Positions 22,551-37,557 of a stretch of DNA of 38,163 nucleotides are shown one piece after another. The notes beneath the pieces were generated by a model. That model searched no databases and was not told the DNA's origin. It worked only from the letters and a program-made list of their open reading frames with translations. Position 1 is the stretch's first letter; each line of letters begins with the position of its first letter. The DNA comes from a virus: positions 1 through 38,163 of the IMG/VR virus record IMGVR_UViG_3300009509_000056. The stretch is one strand, 5' to 3'. Position numbers and translations under genes: made by a program.

Positions 22551-22636
22551 TGCCTTCACCTCGTCCAAGCGGGTATAGGAAATTGCACCCGTCAATCATA
22601 GCGCCGGCTTGTGGACCGTGCCAAGCAGAACATATA

Positions 22637-22645
22637 GTATAAGTA
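22637..22645 (+). promoter_or_regulatory. Candidate promoter element GTATAAGTA
   Basis: The 9-mer GTATAAGTA lies 29 nt before the ATG of the next plus-strand gene, in an AT-rich patch (ACATATAGTATAAGTA). The identical 9-mer occurs in the noncoding region upstream of TerL. It differs by one base from the T4 late promoter core TATAAATA. Assignment as a promoter is inference. Confidence 0.5.
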
Positions 22646-22674
22646 CCACGTGCTCCAGCCGAGTGGGAAGACCA

Positions 22675-23178
22675 ATGAAGGACGACAGATTGGATCGCTT
22701 GGAAGCCCAAGTCAGGAACATGGAAGCTCAAATCGCCTTCCTGTTGAGGATCAGCGGCCTAGACGTGTCCAAGCTACGCAACTCCACCGACGAAGAGCTG
22801 CTCTCCACCTACCAGAGCGCGGTCCAGCTTCTTGGATTGCCCTACCGTGAACTAGAGCTAGAGGCCATTCTGCAGTGGTCTGAACTGTTCCTCCAGCTCA
22901 GCGAGTACGAGATGCTCAGGCTGAAAGGCATCGTGGACTACACCCACACCTGGGAGCCGTTCTATCAGCTCTGCATTCGAATGATGACAGTCGTCCGGCA
23001 ACACCCACAGCTCCCTGTCGAAGCCAAGATCCAGCAGCTCTTCGCCGTGCTCGAGCGTGGACGGTCGAACATCAGAGATTCTGCAGTGATCATGTGCCAG
23101 AAGTTCCCAGAAGACCTATCTAAGCGATCAAAACTGCTTCTACAGGACGATAACATCGCTTTTGCCCTGCCTCGCTGA
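22675..23178 (+). CDS. Unknown helical protein on opposite strand to virion block
   Basis: A 167-aa protein. The start was chosen at the ATG preceded by GGGAAGACCA. Residues 1-25 form a coiled coil (DRLDRLEAQVRNMEAQIAF) and most of the remainder is helical and Leu-rich. It has no membrane segment, Cys cluster or catalytic motif. It is transcribed away from the capsid block, from the candidate GTATAAGTA promoter, and codon use is less G/C-biased than in the next gene, so the two may be expressed differently. A regulatory or host-interaction role is possible but unsupported. Confidence 0.7.
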   Translation: MKDDRLDRLEAQVRNMEAQIAFLLRISGLDVSKLRNSTDEELLSTYQSAVQLLGLPYRELELEAILQWSELFLQLSEYEMLRLKGIVDYTHTWEPFYQLCIRMMTVVRQHPQLPVEAKIQQLFAVLERGRSNIRDSAVIMCQKFPEDLSKRSKLLLQDDNIAFALPR

Positions 23179-23208
23179 AAATCTGATCAGTTACTAGAGA
23201 TAAGAGAA

Positions 23209-23236
23209 ATAGAGAGGCGAAGAGGTACCTCTCTAT
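23209..23236 (+). promoter_or_regulatory. Leader hairpin before highly codon-biased gene
   Basis: ATAGAGAGG and CCTCTCTAT form a perfect 9-bp stem with a 10-nt loop, between two plus-strand genes. No T tract follows, so it is more likely an mRNA 5'-end stabiliser or processing signal than a terminator. A smaller CCTT/AAGG hairpin follows at about 23238. Confidence 0.5.
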
Positions 23237-23283
23237 CCTTTGCGCAAGGGATTTGCGTTAACCCCTCTACAGAAAGGAGCACC

Positions 23284-23895
23284 ATGAGCAAAGGAAAGGA
23301 CCAGGCGACTGCAGCCGCAGTCGCGAGCCTCCCCGGAGGCGAGGCCGGCGACCTCGCCTCCAATCCCGTCGTCCAGCAGATGATCCGGACGGCGGTGGAG
23401 GAGGCCCTCACCCTCGCCAACAAGCAGCCCCCGATCCAGGCGTCGATGCCGGCCCCCGCATCGACCGGTGCCGTCTCCTTGGCGGAGGCGGTGGAGGAGA
23501 TGGCCTCCGACTCGACCATCAAGAAGCTGATGGAGGCGGAGGCGGCGGCCATCGCCACCACCGTCAACACCTTCCTCGCGAAGAAGATGGAGGAATACGT
23601 CGATCGCCTCAACAAGCTGGCGGGCGAGAGGACGGTCGCCACCCCGACCCTCCAAGACGTGGCGACCATCTACAACGGCCTCGACAAGGCGCAGAAGCAC
23701 GCGCTCCACAGAAAACTGGGCGTGATGCCGGCACCCAACGGCCTGTGGACCTGCGTGGTGGGGCACGACTTCTCCCTCTTCAGGCACGGCGGCTGGGGCA
23801 TCGCCGCCGGCAGCATGAACCTCGGCCTCAAGAGCCTCGGCGTCTGGAAGGGCGTCGACATCGCCCGGTGGCTGATCGGGATGATCCTCGCCTAG
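23284..23895 (+). CDS. Probably abundant unknown protein
   Basis: A 203-aa protein with an excellent AAAGGAGCACC start context. Codons end almost always in G or C, as in the capsid and sheath genes, which implies high expression. The N-terminal 60 residues are Ala/Pro-rich; residues 65-115 are a charged helix or coiled coil; the C-terminal 60 residues contain Trp/Gly/His-rich sequence and end in a short hydrophobic stretch WLIGMILA. A leader hairpin precedes it and a 7-bp hairpin follows. It has no recognised family. Its isolated position and strong signals suggest an independently controlled, abundant phage product, structural or host-directed. Confidence 0.75.
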   Translation: MSKGKDQATAAAVASLPGGEAGDLASNPVVQQMIRTAVEEALTLANKQPPIQASMPAPASTGAVSLAEAVEEMASDSTIKKLMEAEAAAIATTVNTFLAKKMEEYVDRLNKLAGERTVATPTLQDVATIYNGLDKAQKHALHRKLGVMPAPNGLWTCVVGHDFSLFRHGGWGIAAGSMNLGLKSLGVWKGVDIARWLIGMILA

Positions 23896-23913
23896 AAGTA
23901 CCACTCCCCCCGC

Positions 23914-23940: not shown

Positions 23941-25779
23941 TTAGCCATGGAACTTGGGCAATCCGTCCTCCTGCATCGGACGAACGAGGTCTGTCCTTGG
24001 GTGCTTGATCATGCTGGCGAGCAGGCAGTACAACATGGAGTGGAATGTGTCGTCCGTCTTGCCCGGGGACTTCTTGTACTCCAACATCCGGAGCTGGTTG
24101 TTGTACTCACTGAAGATGTTGAGGCAGTCCTGGCCGTAGGGATCGAAGAACTGGTCCCAAGACGGCAGGTCGATCTGCTTCCGCTTGATCATCGTAAAGA
24201 GGAGAGTCATGACCTCAGTACGGTGGCACATCCAGCGAAGCAAGTTGGGTTCCCAGTACACCATCTTCTTCTGCCTCGGGTTGTACTGGAACTTCATGAC
24301 CTTCGCGGGGCCGAAGCGCCTGGTCAGGGTATCGTTGGGATGGAATCCACCACCGTAGTCCACTCCACAGATCTGCACGTCGAGCTGTGCCAGCATCTGG
24401 GAGATGAGATCGAGCTGCCTCTCCGGCTCGAGGTCCTGTCCGGTGAAGCGATGAGTCCAGAAGATGGTGAAGTTGCCTCGGCCGACGTAGCCGCCGAAGG
24501 AGATGACCGTGTAGGTGTTCTCACCAGTGCCCCAGTCTATCCCAGCAAAGACCTCGCGGCCGCGCATGACGTACTTGAAGTGCTCGATGTCGCCTAGTCG
24601 GATCTCTTCTTTACAGCAAGCCTTGAGCTGGCCCCTGGTGATGGGACGGATGCCGGAGTCGTAGGAGAGTCCGAGCTTCTCGTTGTAGAACTGGGCTCTA
24701 GGATACTGCTCCTGCGCCTGCAGAATCTCGATCCAATCCACCCACGGCACCATGATCTGGGGGATGCGGTAGCCTTCGAAGGTGACCTTGTCTTTGTTGC
24801 TCTCGGTCGGTGGGTTCATGGACACCCACTTCGCCTCCGGGTGCTTTGCGTTGATCAGCTCCTTGCACTTGTCGCAGATCAATCCCTTCTCGCCTATGTT
24901 ATCCTCACCCAGGATATTCCAGTGCCAGCTCGAGGGATTCTTCGGAGTGCCGCACCGCTCACACGGCACAGCCCACTCGTTCTGCGTGGAGAAGTTCGAC
25001 CAGTAGTGCTCGATGGTGTTGTCTTCCGACTTCGGGGTGCCGGAGTAGACGAAAAGCTTGTACTTGGAATGGAATGCACACTGCTCGATGATCGGGATGT
25101 TGTCGATGAGAATGTCCTGCAACTCGTCGATCTCGATCAGGTCAGCGGGGATTCCACGGACGCGGTCAGCGGTGAGGTAGGCGTAGCGCAGGCGGATCTG
25201 GGAGAAGTTGATGAACTTCTTGAAGAAGACCGCCTGGTTCAACTTGGTCGTGACGTAGGCGCTGAGGAGCGGAGAACACTCCATCACGTCTTTGATCCGG
25301 TCGTTAGAGAAGACCTTTGCCTGCTCCGCAGAGGGTGCCACGTACAGCGTTCGGAAGTTGGTGTTCAAGCAGGAGTAGCAGAACAGCCGGTTGCCCAGCG
25401 TGGTGGACTTCTCCACCTGCCTCCCGCACTTGAGTAGCAGTCGGTCCGTGGGAGTATCGTAGATTCTCCTCAGATACTCACGACCCTCGAACCTGAAATC
25501 GGAAATGCGCCCGGCTTCCGGGATGCGGATTGCTGTCTCAGCAAACTGGCTGGGAGTGACGTCGTAGATGAACCTGCTGACATCGAGGTGTTGGAGATCG
25601 TCGAATGCCGGATCCGGCGGCTCGACATCGAACTCGTAGAGCCTGGGGTTACCTTCATCGTCTAGATCAAACCACGGCTCCTTGATGACCTTCCCACCCA
25701 TGTCCCAGGCAGAGTAGACCAGCGGCAACGTATCAGCCGACTGGATGAGACTGACCTGGGCGAGGTCGATCACGGACAT
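23941..25779 (-). CDS. terL: Terminase large subunit (TerL)
   Basis: A 612-aa DNA-packaging motor. The ATPase half has an unusual Walker A at 118-126 (CGRQVEKST, with Glu where Gly is usual), Walker B LIEIDE at 214-219 and a coupling motif SGT at 246-248. A four-Cys zinc ribbon (Cys273, 276, 302, 305) is inserted between the ATPase and nuclease halves. The RNase-H-like nuclease starts at AGIDWG with Asp415, continues with VDYGGG Asp474 and ends with a DDTFHS acidic pair near 576-577. It cuts and pumps DNA into the prohead through the portal. The ATG lacks a clear Shine-Dalgarno site, unlike most genes here, and follows a 273-bp noncoding region. The family call is secure. Confidence 0.93.
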   Translation of the reverse strand: MSVIDLAQVSLIQSADTLPLVYSAWDMGGKVIKEPWFDLDDEGNPRLYEFDVEPPDPAFDDLQHLDVSRFIYDVTPSQFAETAIRIPEAGRISDFRFEGREYLRRIYDTPTDRLLLKCGRQVEKSTTLGNRLFCYSCLNTNFRTLYVAPSAEQAKVFSNDRIKDVMECSPLLSAYVTTKLNQAVFFKKFINFSQIRLRYAYLTADRVRGIPADLIEIDELQDILIDNIPIIEQCAFHSKYKLFVYSGTPKSEDNTIEHYWSNFSTQNEWAVPCERCGTPKNPSSWHWNILGEDNIGEKGLICDKCKELINAKHPEAKWVSMNPPTESNKDKVTFEGYRIPQIMVPWVDWIEILQAQEQYPRAQFYNEKLGLSYDSGIRPITRGQLKACCKEEIRLGDIEHFKYVMRGREVFAGIDWGTGENTYTVISFGGYVGRGNFTIFWTHRFTGQDLEPERQLDLISQMLAQLDVQICGVDYGGGFHPNDTLTRRFGPAKVMKFQYNPRQKKMVYWEPNLLRWMCHRTEVMTLLFTMIKRKQIDLPSWDQFFDPYGQDCLNIFSEYNNQLRMLEYKKSPGKTDDTFHSMLYCLLASMIKHPRTDLVRPMQEDGLPKFHG

Positions 25780-26052
25780 GGATCTATTCTACCGCAAGAG
25801 ACAGAAGTGAAAAGGTATAAGTAGAATCGAAGGGAGAGGCACGTACCCTTCACCCACTAGCTGGTGGTCCACGCGGTGCAGCGGACTTCCTGGCTTGATC
25901 CGAGTTCCCTGGGTCCTTAACTTCGTACAGCGTACAATGGCCAACGGACCAGGGCAAAGGTTCATATCTGTGGGAGACCCGTGCCCAAGGGGGGCCGTTT
26001 GGCTGTTGTAACGCCCGTCATTTTTGGCTGACCGGCGCAAGCCGGTCCCAAT
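25780..26052 (+). ncRNA. Structured noncoding region, candidate RNA or packaging site
   Basis: It is the longest stretch without a credible gene. It holds several inverted repeats: GAAGGG/CCCTTC (25829-25851), CCCTGGGTCC with GGACCAGGG (25907-25954, one bulge), GGGCA/TGCCC (25952-25986) and GACCGGC-GCAA-GCCGGTC (26030-26047). The last has a GNRA tetraloop only when read on the plus strand, and a GTATAAGTA promoter-like element precedes the first hairpin on that strand, so a plus-strand RNA of about 220 nt is my preferred reading. As the sequence just upstream of TerL it could also be a pac or cos site or a TerL leader. It does not fit tRNA or tmRNA. Confidence 0.4.
25815..25823 (+). promoter_or_regulatory. 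Second copy of GTATAAGTA element
   Basis: This 9-mer is identical to the one before the plus-strand gene near 22.7 kb. No plus-strand gene follows it; instead it precedes the hairpin-rich noncoding region, which is why I read that region as a possible transcript. Promoter activity is inferred. Confidence 0.45.
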
Positions 26053-26655
26053 TTAGCCCCGAGACCTCGACAGCTCGAAGCTGGCAGCGTACGCCTCGGC
26101 CAGGCCAGCCGGCTCGGTGAGGACCTCCTCGGGCATGGGCAGAGGGGTCCTGGGCTCGGGCATGGCCACGGACCAGCTGTCCACCTCGGGAAAGTAGTTC
26201 ACCTTGAACCCGGTCCGGAACTTGAAGACCTGCGGGAACATCTTGCCCAGATACTCGCCGAATCCATCCCACCAGGGCTTCTCATCCAACGCAGCGTGCA
26301 CGTCCCTGGAGATCTGTTGCTGCTCCAGGTCTCTGGCGCGTGCCGCTACCCGCTTGTCGTTGTCGCTGGCCCCTTTACATGCAGCCTCGAATCGGTCGCG
26401 CGTGCTCTCCATCGCCGCATGGCCCGCATCGATGATCTCTTTGCGGTACCGATGATAGAAGTGGTAGTTCAACACCCCGTCCTTCACGCCGTACTCCACC
26501 AGCACGTGGTCGTGCTTGACCGTCGTGAGCTCTGGGACTTGGACTTGGTCTGCGATGTTCTCACCGGGGAGCTTGGGCAGGTTTTTCTGCTCCCACTCCT
26601 CGTCGGTCATCCAGAAAGGCTTACGTTTCCCCGTCGTCTCCTGCGTCGTCGTCAT
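26053..26655 (-). CDS. Unknown protein upstream of TerL
   Basis: A 200-aa protein whose start overlaps the previous gene by 35 nt and has an AGGAGG site about 8 nt upstream. The N-terminal 35 residues are Lys/Thr/Glu-rich with WMTDEEWEQKNL; the middle (40-140) mixes strands and long charged helices; the C-terminal part has aromatic residues and a Pro-rich loop (about 165-180). It has no recognised motif. It lies in the spike-to-TerL block and may be a small structural or packaging accessory protein, but that is location only. Confidence 0.7.
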   Translation of the reverse strand: MTTTQETTGKRKPFWMTDEEWEQKNLPKLPGENIADQVQVPELTTVKHDHVLVEYGVKDGVLNYHFYHRYRKEIIDAGHAAMESTRDRFEAACKGASDNDKRVAARARDLEQQQISRDVHAALDEKPWWDGFGEYLGKMFPQVFKFRTGFKVNYFPEVDSWSVAMPEPRTPLPMPEEVLTEPAGLAEAYAASFELSRSRG

Positions 26656-31272: not shown

Positions 31273-34200
31273 CTAATACTCGAACTTGTCTTTCCCTCTG
31301 CCGATCTCTGCCCCGAAGGCAACAGCCGGTATGGGGTGCTTACCGTGGAGACGACTCGTCCATCCCTGCTGCGCAGCCTCCGTGATGGTCTGGTGCAGCC
31401 GCTCGTGGTTGAGCTTGGCCTGCCAGTCTTCCTGCATGTCCAGTGGCAGCACATCCACTCCCTTCAGAACTGGCACGTGCCTGATTGGCGCCTTCCCTTT
31501 CAGTACCGTTCGATTTATCTTAGCGATTCTTGAGTGCGGTGCAAAGTCCCCACGTATGAACTCGCCGTGATCTCCAGGATCCTCCACCCTGGTGAGGTTG
31601 GTCAAGGACTTCACCACCACTTCCGCATTCCGCCTACGTATTCCCTCACCTGCGAAGAGTCCGTGCAGTTGATTGGTCAGATGGCCCTGTACTTTCTCTA
31701 TGCCAGTGAGTGGAAGCATCTCTCTGGGATTGATGTCTCCGGTCGAGATGGGATCTCCCTGCCTCACCGACATCCCCTGGCGGAGCGCCCTCCCGTTGTG
31801 TGTTGGGGTGCCCAACTTGTTGGGTACGTAGTGGCGCTGTCCGCCGATGAAGACGTTGTGCCCGCCTGCTGGGTCGCGCTGGATCTCCTCCACCTTTCCT
31901 CCCACTGTGGCGAGAGTAGCAGATCCAGGCAGCGTCTTCGGGAAGCGGAACATCTGCTTCACCCTGGTGAAGTCGTCGACCAACCCCTCTTTTGTGGCGA
32001 CTGTCCCTCCCGTGTGGAACGCTTTCATGGCCAGCTGAGTAGTCCGCTCACCCAAGGCCTGGCCGGCCAGCACTCCGACATTCAGTCCACGTTCCGGTTC
32101 CCTACCATCCTCCGTCAGGCCGTAGCACTTCTTGCAGATACCCGGTCCGTGGTTGCACCGCAACGGAGATCGCACCGAGACTCTTCCCACCTTGTTGTTC
32201 CTCAGCGAGTTCCTCACCTCCGGGGTGATCAGCGTGCCTGCTGGAAAGGTCTTCTTCCCGACCTTGATCGGAGTGGCCAGGTACCTATCGAGCAGATCTT
32301 TGTCGTCTGTGGCCAGCGCGACGCCCTTATCGGTCCCACAGTCATCGTCGAGGATGACGTTGTCCATCACCGAGTTCATCACCTGCTTCGAGATGTATCC
32401 GGGCTCTTGTACGGACTGGACCTTCTGGATGATGCCTTTGCGGGCTCCGCTCATGGAGGTCCAGTAGTCGGAGATGTCCAGTCCCTCTGAGTAGGACTTG
32501 CGCACAGGAGATGGAATGACCTCGCCTTTGGCGTTGGCGATCAGCATCGGTGCCATTTTGATCTGCCGCAATGTGTCCGTGTAGGGCTTGATGCCAGAAC
32601 GATTCATCGTGAGCAGGTTGCTCTGTGACTCTGGCATCTGATCGAGGCGCCTCATCATCTCCTGGGTCGCTGCATCGTACACCTTGATCGCTCTAGCCTC
32701 CTTCGCCTGGGCCGTGCCCGGCCCCGCCATGGCCTTCGCTACCTCCTTGTCTGCCTTCGCCATGATAGAGGAGCGCAGCGCCTTCTCGGGCCTGATATCA
32801 TCCAGACCCAGGGAGAACGCGGTCTCTGTTGCCCAGCGATTGCCCAGATCCTTGAGCTTGTTGACCGCCTCTCCGTAGTCATTCCGGTAGTTCTTGGCAA
32901 GGTCGGTCAGCAACGCCTTCTGTTCCTTGCCACCCAGCGGCTTGTTGCCTCTGACAAAGGCTGACCGCATGTCCTCCGGCAGGGCCTCGCCAACCATCAG
33001 CCGACCAGGCGTAGACTTGATATGCCCGACACGCACCTGATCAGTTAGCCCGACGGTGCCGCTATCAACAGCCCGCTTCATCTCATCCACGTTTTTGAAT
33101 GAGAGGTTCGTCCTCTTGCCGATCTGCGTCGCTCCATACAATCCTAGCTGGCTCTCTTGCGACGGTGTGTACATGACGTTGCCAGTGGCTGGGCTGAAGA
33201 GGTTCCTGGAAGGCATCATCTTGTGCGCCTCCTCCACCGCTTCCTTGCCCACAGGGACGAAAGCCGCCATCGTATCGCCGTCGAAGTCCGCGTTGTAGCC
33301 CGAAGTCACGAGCGGATGAATCTGCACTGCCTTCCCGCCTACGATCCTCGGCTTGAATCCCTGGACGTTGAACTTGTGAAGCGCGGGGTCGCGCTTCAGA
33401 AGTACCGGCCGCTCAGACATCACTCGCTCGAGCGCCTTGTCGACGATGGGCTGCCCCTCCTTGATCGCCTGCTGCGCAGCCAGAGGCGTCAGGCCGGCCA
33501 GCGTCCGTAGTTCACGGACAATGAAAGGCTTGTAGAGCTCGCGCGCCGCGTCTCTGGGCAGCCCCACCTCGTCCAGCCCCAGAGCCGGCTCTGGGATGAT
33601 GGTGGAACGCATGGAGAGATCTTGCTTCCTCTGCACCAGCTTCTTCTGGAAGAACCCCTCCTTGGGCGGGCCAACCTTCTGCCCTGTCTCCCGCTCCGGC
33701 TTCTTCCCAGCGATGATATCCAGGATGCCGCGGAACTCCCTGTTGGCATGACCACCGATGCCCGTGAGAGACTTGAGGCCATCGTAGACCTCGGCTCTGA
33801 TCTCGTTCTTCTCTTCTTCCGGCAGGAGAGGAGACATCGTCTTCAAACGTCCGGCAGACAGAGCTATGCCCTTATACATGTGGTTGAGATCATCCACATT
33901 GAGATCGCCATTGGGCAGCTGAGAGAGTGGACGCATCGACGGCGGCATGACCGGCACGTTCTGCACCATGTAGGCGTCCTTGGCCGTCAGCCCTGCCTGA
34001 TTCAGTGCACTGAGGTACTTGACCTTCTTGTGCGCCCGATCCAGCCGATTACCTTTGAGGCCCGGAGCCTGAAGAGCTTCTTGCGCTGCCTTGAGCTCCT
34101 TCTGCACGTCGACCTGACCCAGCATCGCTGAGAAAGCCTGGCCGCCAACCAGTCCTTTGTCTGGACTGACGAACTTGCCGGTCTTTGGATCGTAGCCCTG

Positions 34201-37200
34201 TGTTCCAGCGATGACCTGGTTGTACTGCTTGCCGGTGATGCCAGTGAGCGACTGGATCGATTTCTCGAACAGCGGATTCGGCATCGGCTCCGGTAGCTTG
34301 ATGTGTCCCCACTTCGTTCCCTCCATTCCGCCAGTCACGGAGGGATCGAACAATCCATGCTTCTCTGGCCGCAGGTCCTTGGCGCGGACCATCTTGCCGC
34401 CGTCTTTGATCTCTCCGTTGCTCATCTCCTTCACCTGCTGATCTGTGAAAGGAATGAGCTGGAGATTGTTGCCGTCCTTCCTGACGTTCAGGCCCAGACC
34501 ATTGAGGTAGCCGAGAAACTTCTTGTAGGCGAAGGTCGGGCGTGGTGCTGGAAGTGGCTCGCCGGCCTGCAGCGCGGACCAGAACTCGTCGTTCTGTCCA
34601 GCGTCGCTCTTGACGGTCTGCATCTCGCGAAGATTGGCCTTCGCTCCGTGTGCGAGCATGGAGTAAAGGCCGAGGGTCCCCAGGGCCTGAGCACCATGGG
34701 GACCCCCGCCCTTTGGCACCAGGTTTCTGTCGTACGCGTAGCCAGGACCGCCAGCCCTGGCGACCAGCTTCTTCTCGACCTGGTGCTTCAGCTTGACGAT
34801 GTGCTGCGGCCCCACCAGCGCCTCACCCAGTGGGCGATTGGTGATGGGGTCGATGACCGTTTCCTTGTCTGTCAGACCGTGGGCCTTGAGATCATTCGAT
34901 ACCTGTGCGTGCAGGTCCGAGTCTGGTAGAAAGTTCTTGACCTTGTACGGCTTGCCGGTCGCCTCAGCGATCTTTCCAGCTGCAGTCTCCAAGATCTGAC
35001 CGAGATTGGTGCGGCCAGGGACGCCAGTTGGATTCATCAGCACGTCGATCTGTTTGCCAGCCACAGTTCTGGGCATCTCTCCATCAGGTACGATCTTCGT
35101 CACGATGCCCTTGTTTCCATGACGGCCCGCCAGCTTGTCTCCCACCTCCATGGGTTCGATAGTCTTCACGTGGACCGCAGTCTTGCGACCACGCTTGACC
35201 ACTTCCTCTACCACCCCGGCGTGATCTCCCTCCCACCTCACGCTGTCATCCCTGAACGGCTTGACAAGTGACTTATGCAGGCGCGCAAGCTCTTTGTCCT
35301 CCACCCGGTCAGTCTTCTCGCGTAGTGCTGCAATGAGCGTGTCCCCAGGCATGACCCTCATACCTGGTTTGATCACACCATCATCGTCTAGCTTTTCCGA
35401 TTGCTCTCTGGTGAGCGCGTCTGGAACGTAGGCCTGGAACTTCTTCTTGCTGAGGACATGGCTGCTGTCCATGTCCAGAGTCTTGCGATGGAGATGTTCA
35501 CTCGACAGCCGCTGCGCTGCCCGCTCGCTGATCACCACACCATCCTCGTAGTTGTACCCCTTGAACGGCATGTATGCGGTGCGGAGATTCGTGCCCAGCG
35601 CAAGGACTCCATCCTTGGTGAAGTTGGTGTCCGCTACTGGCTGACCCTTCTTCACAGTGTCGCCTACCTTCACCGTCGGAGTCGAGTGGAGGAACCCCTT
35701 GTCTGCATTCAGCGGGAAGTTGTTGTAGAGCTGAACCTCATGGCTCTTGCCGCTGGCATCCTTGATGTAGACACCGTCCTTGGTGACCTTGGACACCGTG
35801 CCCGATACCCTGGCGTTGTGCCCAGCGTACCCTCCCATCACCTCGTCGAATGTCTTCGTGCCGGCCAGGCTCTGCACCAATGGCGCCTGCCTGTCCACCA
35901 GGCCGATGGCCTGCTCCATGTGGCGGCCAGCCATGGTGCTGCGCGCCGGGTGATCTGCCGCGATGAACGGCACCATGTTCGACCCGATCGAGAACATCTG
36001 GATTGGATCGCGCATGACGTAGTCGGCTTTGCCCAGAGAACCCTCAACGATCTCATTCCCAGGGCCGCTCATCTTCACAGTCCGGCCCAGCGGCTTCGGC
36101 TTTCCCTTTTCCCATGAGACCTGATCCGGTAGAACGACGTTGGACTGCATCGCCTTTTCCGGATTCACATCCACGAGCTTGCCCTTCTTGACGTCGAACA
36201 TCTTCACGGTGACGTCGTGCCCCTTCTTCTTGACACCGATCGGCAAGCGAAGGCTCACACCCGTGGCCTGGCCCTCTGGTGTATGGATAGGATCGAGGTA
36301 GCCAAGATGTGATGGGTCGATCAGCTTTGCTTCTTCACTGATCCCATGCGCACTCTTGATGCCGCCTTCGCCAGTGATGGTCGTCTTCATCTGGCCGGAC
36401 ACCATCTCCAACGGGTTCGTCTGGTCTGGGATGTTAGCCAGGGACGTGCGGAACATGGAGTTCACAGGACGCTGGAAGATGTCGGGGCCGACAATGTCCA
36501 TCACCCTGTTCCTGCGGTCGATGTTGTTGCCGAGCCGGCGCATGATGTCGTGCGTTCCCTTCTGAATGCGCTCGGCAAAGAAGTCCTCGGTGGAGTGAAG
36601 CTCCTTGAACGGCAGAGCATCACGGGCATCGGGCTGGGCTTTGCCCTGGCTGATCCGCAGTAACTTGGTGGCGGCATCGAACAGGGCGGGACCGGTAACC
36701 TGCTTGTACTCCTTGCCCAGAGTCAGCTTGGTGGTCTCAGGCATGATCTCTGTCCCACGGAAGGTGTCCATGAGATGCTGTCTAGCCTGTCCCACATCCG
36801 TAGCCTTCTCTCCAGTGGAGGCCTTGTAGAACTTCATCAGCGCCTGTTCACCGCTCTGCTGGTTGGCGCCGGAGATCTGCTTGCCCCATTCCCTGTCGAT
36901 CTGTTCTTGCCCCACCCCCATCTCGCGAAGCAGTGGTTGTAGTGGGATCTTGGAGGTGCCGTACTCCATAACGAACTGGCGTGACTCCGGGTCGAAGTTG
37001 AGATCGAACCCACGGCCCTTCCGGAGATTGAAGAAGGACTCGAGCTCGCCGTTGTCCCGCACCCTGGCATAGATGCCAGACTTCAGACGCCACTGGTTAT
37101 CGATCTGGTACTCCTGACCTTCCTTGATCTGAGTGTAGCGGCGCGTGGTCTTGGGGAGAGTGAACAGCCGAAGATGCTGGGAGTCCACTTTCTTGCCGGT

Positions 37201-37431
37201 GTCGTTGTCAACCAATGACACCTTGGCTTCGACCGGCACGGCCCAGTCCCTTCCACGGACTTTGGCCTGCTTCTGAGATCGGATGTCGTCGATGTGAAGA
37301 TTGTCTTTGACCGCGACGTTGTCGAGCTGCAGGGTGTGCTTCTTTCCCACTACGGGAAAGAGGCCACTGACAGTCTCTGTTACCCGGTCACTGAGAGCCT
37401 TGAAGCCCTCTTCCGGTGACAGACGAGCCAT
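31273..37431 (-). CDS. rpoBC: Single-chain fused beta-beta' RNA polymerase
   Basis: A 2052-aa DNA-dependent RNA polymerase. Residues about 1-1000 are beta-like: PDQTNPLE at 335 (rifampicin region), IHTPEG, ADHPARSTMAGRHM near 493, GYNYEDG near 626, GDKLAGRHGNKG with Lys766 and Lys774, and REMQTVKSD near 937. Residues from about 1010 are beta'-like: HGLFDP start, clamp helices near 1175-1220, LLKRDPALHK with Arg1347, NADFDGD with catalytic Asp1382, 1384 and 1386, a bridge-helix region near 1658-1697, Zn2 cysteines 1698, 1759, 1766 and 1769, and trigger-loop MKAFHTGG with Lys1803 and His1806. The spacing Arg1347 to Asn1380 equals that in E. coli beta' (425-458). The beta' N-terminal zinc ribbon is missing. 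AGGAG precedes the ATG. No alpha, omega or sigma gene is visible in the window. Confidence 0.97.
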   Translation of the reverse strand: MARLSPEEGFKALSDRVTETVSGLFPVVGKKHTLQLDNVAVKDNLHIDDIRSQKQAKVRGRDWAVPVEAKVSLVDNDTGKKVDSQHLRLFTLPKTTRRYTQIKEGQEYQIDNQWRLKSGIYARVRDNGELESFFNLRKGRGFDLNFDPESRQFVMEYGTSKIPLQPLLREMGVGQEQIDREWGKQISGANQQSGEQALMKFYKASTGEKATDVGQARQHLMDTFRGTEIMPETTKLTLGKEYKQVTGPALFDAATKLLRISQGKAQPDARDALPFKELHSTEDFFAERIQKGTHDIMRRLGNNIDRRNRVMDIVGPDIFQRPVNSMFRTSLANIPDQTNPLEMVSGQMKTTITGEGGIKSAHGISEEAKLIDPSHLGYLDPIHTPEGQATGVSLRLPIGVKKKGHDVTVKMFDVKKGKLVDVNPEKAMQSNVVLPDQVSWEKGKPKPLGRTVKMSGPGNEIVEGSLGKADYVMRDPIQMFSIGSNMVPFIAADHPARSTMAGRHMEQAIGLVDRQAPLVQSLAGTKTFDEVMGGYAGHNARVSGTVSKVTKDGVYIKDASGKSHEVQLYNNFPLNADKGFLHSTPTVKVGDTVKKGQPVADTNFTKDGVLALGTNLRTAYMPFKGYNYEDGVVISERAAQRLSSEHLHRKTLDMDSSHVLSKKKFQAYVPDALTREQSEKLDDDGVIKPGMRVMPGDTLIAALREKTDRVEDKELARLHKSLVKPFRDDSVRWEGDHAGVVEEVVKRGRKTAVHVKTIEPMEVGDKLAGRHGNKGIVTKIVPDGEMPRTVAGKQIDVLMNPTGVPGRTNLGQILETAAGKIAEATGKPYKVKNFLPDSDLHAQVSNDLKAHGLTDKETVIDPITNRPLGEALVGPQHIVKLKHQVEKKLVARAGGPGYAYDRNLVPKGGGPHGAQALGTLGLYSMLAHGAKANLREMQTVKSDAGQNDEFWSALQAGEPLPAPRPTFAYKKFLGYLNGLGLNVRKDGNNLQLIPFTDQQVKEMSNGEIKDGGKMVRAKDLRPEKHGLFDPSVTGGMEGTKWGHIKLPEPMPNPLFEKSIQSLTGITGKQYNQVIAGTQGYDPKTGKFVSPDKGLVGGQAFSAMLGQVDVQKELKAAQEALQAPGLKGNRLDRAHKKVKYLSALNQAGLTAKDAYMVQNVPVMPPSMRPLSQLPNGDLNVDDLNHMYKGIALSAGRLKTMSPLLPEEEKNEIRAEVYDGLKSLTGIGGHANREFRGILDIIAGKKPERETGQKVGPPKEGFFQKKLVQRKQDLSMRSTIIPEPALGLDEVGLPRDAARELYKPFIVRELRTLAGLTPLAAQQAIKEGQPIVDKALERVMSERPVLLKRDPALHKFNVQGFKPRIVGGKAVQIHPLVTSGYNADFDGDTMAAFVPVGKEAVEEAHKMMPSRNLFSPATGNVMYTPSQESQLGLYGATQIGKRTNLSFKNVDEMKRAVDSGTVGLTDQVRVGHIKSTPGRLMVGEALPEDMRSAFVRGNKPLGGKEQKALLTDLAKNYRNDYGEAVNKLKDLGNRWATETAFSLGLDDIRPEKALRSSIMAKADKEVAKAMAGPGTAQAKEARAIKVYDAATQEMMRRLDQMPESQSNLLTMNRSGIKPYTDTLRQIKMAPMLIANAKGEVIPSPVRKSYSEGLDISDYWTSMSGARKGIIQKVQSVQEPGYISKQVMNSVMDNVILDDDCGTDKGVALATDDKDLLDRYLATPIKVGKKTFPAGTLITPEVRNSLRNNKVGRVSVRSPLRCNHGPGICKKCYGLTEDGREPERGLNVGVLAGQALGERTTQLAMKAFHTGGTVATKEGLVDDFTRVKQMFRFPKTLPGSATLATVGGKVEEIQRDPAGGHNVFIGGQRHYVPNKLGTPTHNGRALRQGMSVRQGDPISTGDINPREMLPLTGIEKVQGHLTNQLHGLFAGEGIRRRNAEVVVKSLTNLTRVEDPGDHGEFIRGDFAPHSRIAKINRTVLKGKAPIRHVPVLKGVDVLPLDMQEDWQAKLNHERLHQTITEAAQQGWTSRLHGKHPIPAVAFGAEIGRGKDKFEY

Positions 37432-37557
37432 GGCCCACTCCTATGTCTTCTAGGTGTTGAAAATAACAGATCAATCCCCGATCAGTCAACGAAATATTAC
37501 ACAATGATTCCGTTATAAGGGGAATGAAGCACAAACCGTTAACCTGGAGGTGAAATT
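37432..37557. promoter_or_regulatory. AT-rich divergent promoter region
   Basis: This spacer is far more AT-rich than its surroundings. Toward the plus strand GTTATAAGGGG (37512-37522) shares TATAAG with the two GTATAAGTA elements. Toward the polymerase gene the minus strand reads TTGTGTAATATTTCG, with a TAATAT -10-like hexamer. GATCA occurs twice (37468-37484). AGGAGTGGGCC is the polymerase ribosome-binding site and GGAGGT serves the plus-strand peptide. Exact start points cannot be given. Confidence 0.5.

Follow-up and report, generated by a model that had tools for sequence, protein, structure and literature searches.

What a stretch of 273 bp is doing between two genes of a phage virion block is the question raised by positions 25780-26052 of the window, the term used here for the whole 38,163-base virus record IMGVR_UViG_3300009509_000056, which comes from an uncultured large phage. 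Both flanking virion genes lie on the minus strand: the terminase gene TerL (23941-25779; PHROG 675, E 4.8e-62; Pfam GpA_ATPase, 1.6e-14), whose 5' side ends at 25779, and the adjoining gene 'up' (26053-26655), which is syntenic in relatives, has no assigned function and has its stop at 26053. The gap, to which an earlier note had drawn attention, is real and free of both flanking genes. Neither 'up' nor the gene up2 has a match in Pfam or PHROGs; up2 was considered as the small terminase, and its AlphaFold model (302 residues, mean pLDDT 66.4) has no Foldseek match below E 0.001. The reading that best accommodates the observations is an independent gene that encodes a structured noncoding RNA on the plus strand, opposite TerL, and is served by its own promoter; this reading is considered likely. 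Comparison of sequences speaks firmly for the promoter, the strand, the noncoding nature and, in the relatives, selection on the structure.

No cultured phage is close to this one, the nearest TerL among 50,697 phage records being 29% identical, and relatives were gathered from uncultured virus contigs, 52 loci through a single TerL query and more through alignments (the TerL alignment omits L039, which has a stop inside its TerL). A test for conserved protein coding in these relatives (32 regions; 433 loci) was negative. The sole ORF that fills the gap (25789-26040, minus strand, 83 aa, TTG start) has no relative below E 0.5 among 433 loci, and no ORF led by a Shine-Dalgarno (SD) sequence recurs across the 32 regions examined, single regions having one. 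There is no tRNA in 25780-26052; a search of the window and 10 loci against Rfam 15 gives no match at the gathering threshold, and the window's gap has none even at E <= 10; matches at low threshold in L062 and L068 scored far below gathering and were taken as chance. By these searches the proposed RNA family is absent from Rfam 15. Among the blastn matches listed for the gap against the 433 loci there are only 19-29-nt pieces with E 0.21 or worse, and the gap sequence has no match among the 50,697 phage records. A literature search, mostly of papers outside subscription, found no RNA gene of such kind beside a terminase gene.

The gap begins to make sense with its promoter. Positions 25794-25821 of the plus strand read [GCAAGA/TGAAAA]-N14-GGTATAAG, with the -35-like element GCAAGA at 25794-25799 and the -10 element GGTATAAG at 25814-25821; GGTATAAGTA occupies 25814-25823 and GTATAAGTA occupies 25815-25823. 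In the relatives that have the gap, GGTATAAG or a near variant lies 10-46 nt from the TerL start and points away from TerL (CATTAG in L363, CATAAG in L380 and TTATAAG in L332 stand in the -10 place), and GCAAGA, GAAACG, TGAAAA or similar precedes it at a fixed spacing of about 14 nt. Across 11 records, GGTATAAGNNNNNTG matches at 52 places and its reversed control at one. At the sites read outside the TerL slot, the -35 element is present in 37/44, and an SD sequence with an ORF follows in 37/44. Around TerL, in 66 loci comprising 789,202 bases (four genome-contig loci were left out), GGTATAAG is found 56 times on the strand opposite TerL and never on the TerL strand, the matching count for its reversed letters being 10 and 1. 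Taken together, the excess over the control, the context of the sites and the strand bias argue that the GGTATAAG pattern is very probably a genuine promoter class, unused on the TerL strand around TerL. The earlier proposal of a small plus-strand RNA preceded by GTATAAG is thereby strengthened, the motif being in all likelihood the -10 element of a promoter class found across the group. At five further sites (in L396, L404, L411, L423 and L425), GGTATAAG and a -35 element are followed by no SD-led ORF within 220 nt, and these are possibly further RNA genes.

A candidate reader for the promoter is encoded in the same virion gene block. The minus strand at 31273-37431 encodes a single chain of 2052 residues in which the bacterial-type beta and beta-prime subunits of RNA polymerase are fused, with homologs in 11/11 relative records examined, and we infer that this fused polymerase could read the GGTATAAG promoter. 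In several records the homologs carry long in-frame insertions, giving open frames of up to 3596 aa, and these insertions look like inteins. As a separate observation, a promoter variant (GAAAT ... GTTATAAG) lies at 37493-37519 on the plus strand, just upstream of the polymerase gene and facing away from it; in five relative records GGTATAAG likewise lies upstream of the polymerase gene and is followed by an SD sequence and an ORF of about 44-51 codons.

From the phage-specific promoter of the gap, plus-strand transcription would start at about 25829 and, we infer, yield an RNA of about 219 nt (25829-26047), the -10 element being used to place its 5' end and the last hairpin to place its 3' end, which is uncertain because this hairpin has no U-tract. 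The RNA would fold into a chain of hairpins closed by a GC-rich hairpin with a stable tetraloop. The first hairpin, P2 (25829-25851), pairs GAAGGG at 25829-25834 with CCCTTC at 25846-25851 in a position common to the relatives, and taken alone in the window is not above chance (z 0.23). The long imperfect stem P1 (25933-26010) pairs 25933-25947 with 25995-26010; it is significant in most relatives and is the best inner stem of the window, where 14/100 shuffles equal it. The last hairpin, P3 (26030-26047), reads GACCGGC-GCAA-GCCGGTC, a perfect 7-bp stem with a GCAA loop that ends 5 nt before the stop codon of 'up', so that the GNRA-capped plus-strand hairpin previously described is indeed present.

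The 'several stems' of the earlier note fare differently in the window and in its relatives. The window's stretch folds no better than shuffled sequence (z -0.62 for the plus and -1.19 for the minus strand of the gap), and the RNA proper, at z -0.64, is the weakest among 32 sequences tested; since the window copy does not exceed its shuffles, positional homology is the basis for its inner stems. The relatives, on the other hand, show structure beyond chance. At the equivalent place 35 RNA sequences, the window included, fall into four groups and are roughly 120-370 nt long, and for 32 of them the fold was compared with those of 100 dinucleotide shuffles per sequence, together with 64 matched controls inside neighbouring genes. 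Mean fold z was -4.20 in group 1 (8/11 below -3), -7.01 in group 2 (8/8), -2.97 in group 3 (3/6) and -3.69 in group 4 (5/7), so that 24/32 RNA sequences fall below -3 as against 1/64 controls, the near-duplicates L079 and L080 both being counted in the 32. In groups 1-3, 14/25 sequences have an inner stem left unequalled by 100 shuffles. These inner stems have little or no sequence in common across groups, and RNAalifold on the group 1 sequence alignment recovered the last hairpin alone, because the inner stems of that group lack common sequence; per-sequence shuffle tests were therefore used. L332, L363 and L380 enter the covariation of the group-4 motif, the larger mismatch count, the inner tetraloops and the U-tract count given below, and are left out of the fold z, the last-hairpin loops, the stricter mismatch count, the ORF survey and the inner-stem shuffles.

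Covariation, which had been suggested as a check in related genomes, is found at two places. Across the last hairpins of 18 sequences, pairing holds in 99.2% of cells and 10 cells are changed on both sides, as against 2.4 in shuffles, with a covariation score of 0.288 compared with 0.103, none of 500 shuffles scoring as high; the 18 exclude L061 and L100 (misaligned by MAFFT), L054, L091 and L081 (3-nt loops), L029 (same hairpin as L062) and the whole of group 4. Group 4 itself has a 48-position motif, UC-UAGYU-[hairpin]-YUCAUCC-GA, with a conserved internal loop, in which 11 cells are doubly changed as against 3.3 in shuffles (0/500). Group 3 has an internal complementarity of GCCAYCAC with GUGGUGGC (C there in L103), and group 2 a 100-130-nt anatomy of three hairpins. 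A motif seemingly common to the window and group 4 (CUAGCUG...AUCCGAGU), seen by regular expression, was dropped, because the group-4 covariance model R1 finds 9/9 of the group-4 loci given to the search (44.5-57.8 bits) and misses the window RNA even at E 10 with filters off. A collection-wide scan for that motif returned at least 120 stretches; TATAAG lies within 220 nt upstream in 7/121 records examined, convincingly only in L172, a contig already in the set, and a scan for the promoter with a GNRA hairpin returned one stretch, again on a contig already in the set. Judged from these sequences, the groups lack common inner motifs, and homology of the RNA beyond promoter and last hairpin is positional, since the architecture differs between groups.

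The strand opposite the proposed RNA folds nearly equally well (mean z -3.73, -6.51, -1.90 and -3.41 for groups 1-4), and the asymmetry appears in the details. The loop of the last hairpin is GNRA in 14 and UNCG in 3 sequences on the RNA strand, that is 17/32, as against 1/32 on the other strand; that of L111, GUUA, is neither. A strand-neutral search for stems gives 86 G-U and 51 A-C mismatches, compared with 55:56 expected from composition (p 0.002). A stricter and smaller count, 8 and 6, favours neither strand clearly, and inner hairpins carry GNRA or UNCG tetraloops 6 times on the RNA strand and 3 times on the other, which is not a strong bias. The direction of the promoter, the last-hairpin loops and the G-U excess thus agree in pointing to an RNA strand opposite TerL.

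The same asymmetries bear on the view that the gap is a DNA element, either a cos or pac site, as the earlier note had allowed, or a replication origin with inverted repeats, its RNA-like features being incidental. Recognition sites of terminases often sit near terminase genes, as this gap does, and inverted repeats work on both strands. Nevertheless, the loops and G-U mismatches mark an RNA strand, and apart from the promoter and the last hairpin no DNA sequence is conserved among the blastn matches listed for the 433 loci, which speaks against a cos or pac site and leaves a DNA element very improbable. Alternatively, the last hairpin, which in the relatives follows shortly after the 'up' stop codon, could be a terminator or a barrier to convergent transcription where the 'up' operon ends, with the remainder of the gap as spacer. 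At least 5 U are found in the 9 nt after the hairpin in just 4/35 sequences, on either strand, and for this reason a terminator alone is improbable; a terminator-like hairpin of this phage group (L062, near 8430) does have a U-tract, and the promoter and the other stems would be left unexplained. A third possibility, a regulated leader of TerL, had been raised since TerL lacks a clear ribosome-binding site. By eye no SD-like sequence is indeed present upstream of TerL; in its place TAGAAT (25786-25791, minus strand), a candidate -10 element, lies 6 nt before the ATG, and TAGAAT, TAGACT or TAGGAT stands at the equivalent place in the window, L001, L003, L004, L006 and L036. The TerL mRNA may accordingly be leaderless, which would explain the missing ribosome-binding site, and a leader as the main role of the gap is disfavoured by the strand asymmetries of loops and G-U pairs, which favour the other strand. 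A cos or pac site, a terminator and a TerL leader all fit worse than a noncoding RNA gene.

The distribution of the putative RNA gene among relatives suggests what kind of product it may be. Wherever 'up' and the TerL start are both found, the gap measures 153-276 bases, except in L007, which has no gap, and L033, whose gap of 656 bases has an HNH-like insert; in the latter an ORF for an HNH-like endonuclease (1610-2266, named by eye) lies between the RNA promoter and TerL. In L060, with a TerL 67% identical, 'up' overlaps TerL, leaving no gap and no RNA, and GGTATAAG occurs nowhere in the 29-kb record. L343 and L130 have an ORF overlapping TerL, and the gap is short in L132 (34 bases) and L051 (62 bases). 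At more distant loci a promoter-like site is followed by an SD sequence and an ORF of 100-289 codons before TerL in 10/10 read, one of the ten ORFs extending past the end of its locus. The slot would thus be a divergent transcription unit whose payload changes: some members of the group apparently have an RNA there, others a protein, and a few have no payload at all. This distribution speaks for an accessory product over a part indispensable to TerL.

These facts weigh against the possibility that the RNA binds the packaging motor (TerL, portal or small terminase) as does the pRNA of phi29. In its favour, the RNA lies beside TerL in all relatives having it, and its structure is kept amid sequence turnover, as the accessible text of PMC12670572 reports for phi29-type pRNAs. 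On the other hand, there is no Rfam match even at E 10, TerL is of the GpA type and not phi29 gp16, the architecture varies between groups, the close TerL of L060 does without the RNA, and in distant relatives the slot is occupied by a protein gene, so that this reading is considered very unlikely. The likeness to phi29 consists in a phage RNA whose structure outlasts its sequence, here adjoining the packaging ATPase gene; the differences include the tail sheath gene of this phage and an RNA that is not always present. One would have to suppose that a GpA-type TerL, in phages that are not phi29-like, uses an RNA cofactor in packaging or in the virion, and that some relatives have lost this RNA or put a protein in its place; the chance of this is slight. 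A role of the RNA in packaging, if true, would give phi29 a rare counterpart, the second of its kind.

An action in trans is the most likely one, if tentatively so: the folded RNA would bind a phage or host protein and play an accessory role. Its stems are stable and capped, no unpaired seed is common across groups, the internal loop of group 4 is conserved, and the slot elsewhere holds a protein gene or is empty, all of which favour such an action. Alternatively, the RNA could work in cis, as the exact complement of a TerL leader produced by read-through, and hold TerL down early, in the way that RNAI and CopA act on their targets. That it lies antisense to the virion block, as first proposed, holds for its strand, which is the opposite one; it would be antisense in fact only given late read-through of the gap, because it occupies the gap, and its last hairpin ends before the 'up' stop codon is reached. 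Regulation in cis would likewise need late read-through into TerL, since its target is the leader of the read-through mRNA. The opposite strand, a promoter class that the TerL strand lacks in the vicinity of TerL, the three-hairpin anatomy of group 2, the nearly equal folding of both strands and the early antisense RNAs over structural genes described for phage PAK_P3 in the available text of PMC4933390 are all consistent with such regulation. However, with TAGAAT six bases before the ATG, TerL may be leaderless and the target leader may not exist. Moreover, the last hairpin is located where 'up' ends, the G-U excess favours one strand, and a conserved internal loop as in group 4 is unnecessary for pairing with a perfect complement, and regulation in cis is on balance unlikely.

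The putative RNA can be set beside several known systems. RNAI of ColE1 and CopA of plasmid R1 are short chains of hairpins encoded opposite the leader of their target, with fast sequence turnover. The RNA proposed here shares the short hairpin chain, the turnover and the position opposite a possible target leader; it differs in that this leader is only putative, the last hairpin has a stable tetraloop and one group has a conserved internal loop. GOLLD and ROOL are linked to phages and are much larger than the RNA considered here. They are likewise structured RNAs whose role is unclear in the accessible text of PMC12286853, and differ in that the window and 10 loci have no match to them in Rfam at the gathering threshold. 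Phage noncoding RNAs as such are already known, for example in the Pseudomonas phage PAK_P3, where the available part of the report describes noncoding and antisense RNAs detected by RNA-seq, nearly all of the antisense ones within genes (PMC4933390). As far as that part goes, the likeness lies in noncoding phage RNAs of about 100-200 nt and in antisense transcription over the structural region; those RNAs were seen by RNA-seq and are mostly intragenic antisense, whereas the one proposed here would be intergenic, with a dedicated promoter and a conserved fold. The present analysis adds a putative RNA family missing from Rfam 15 and associated with a core virion gene; the large uncultured phages of the group have their own bacterial-type RNA polymerase, and the probable promoter-class sequence makes part of the transcription of this phage group readable from sequence.

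Two further observations concern the terminase gene and its other flank. TerL is interrupted by about 1 kb or more in L024, L026, L027, L030, L033, L036, L038 and L051, near residues 120-130, 206-216 or 432, in the manner of inteins or introns. In the stretch of the window from TerL to the next clear genes on the minus strand (22600-23900) the coding strand is ambiguous, with plus-strand ORFs of 189 and 203 aa lying opposite ORFs of the minus strand, and the matching region of the relatives contains small opposite-strand genes with a GGTATAAG promoter.
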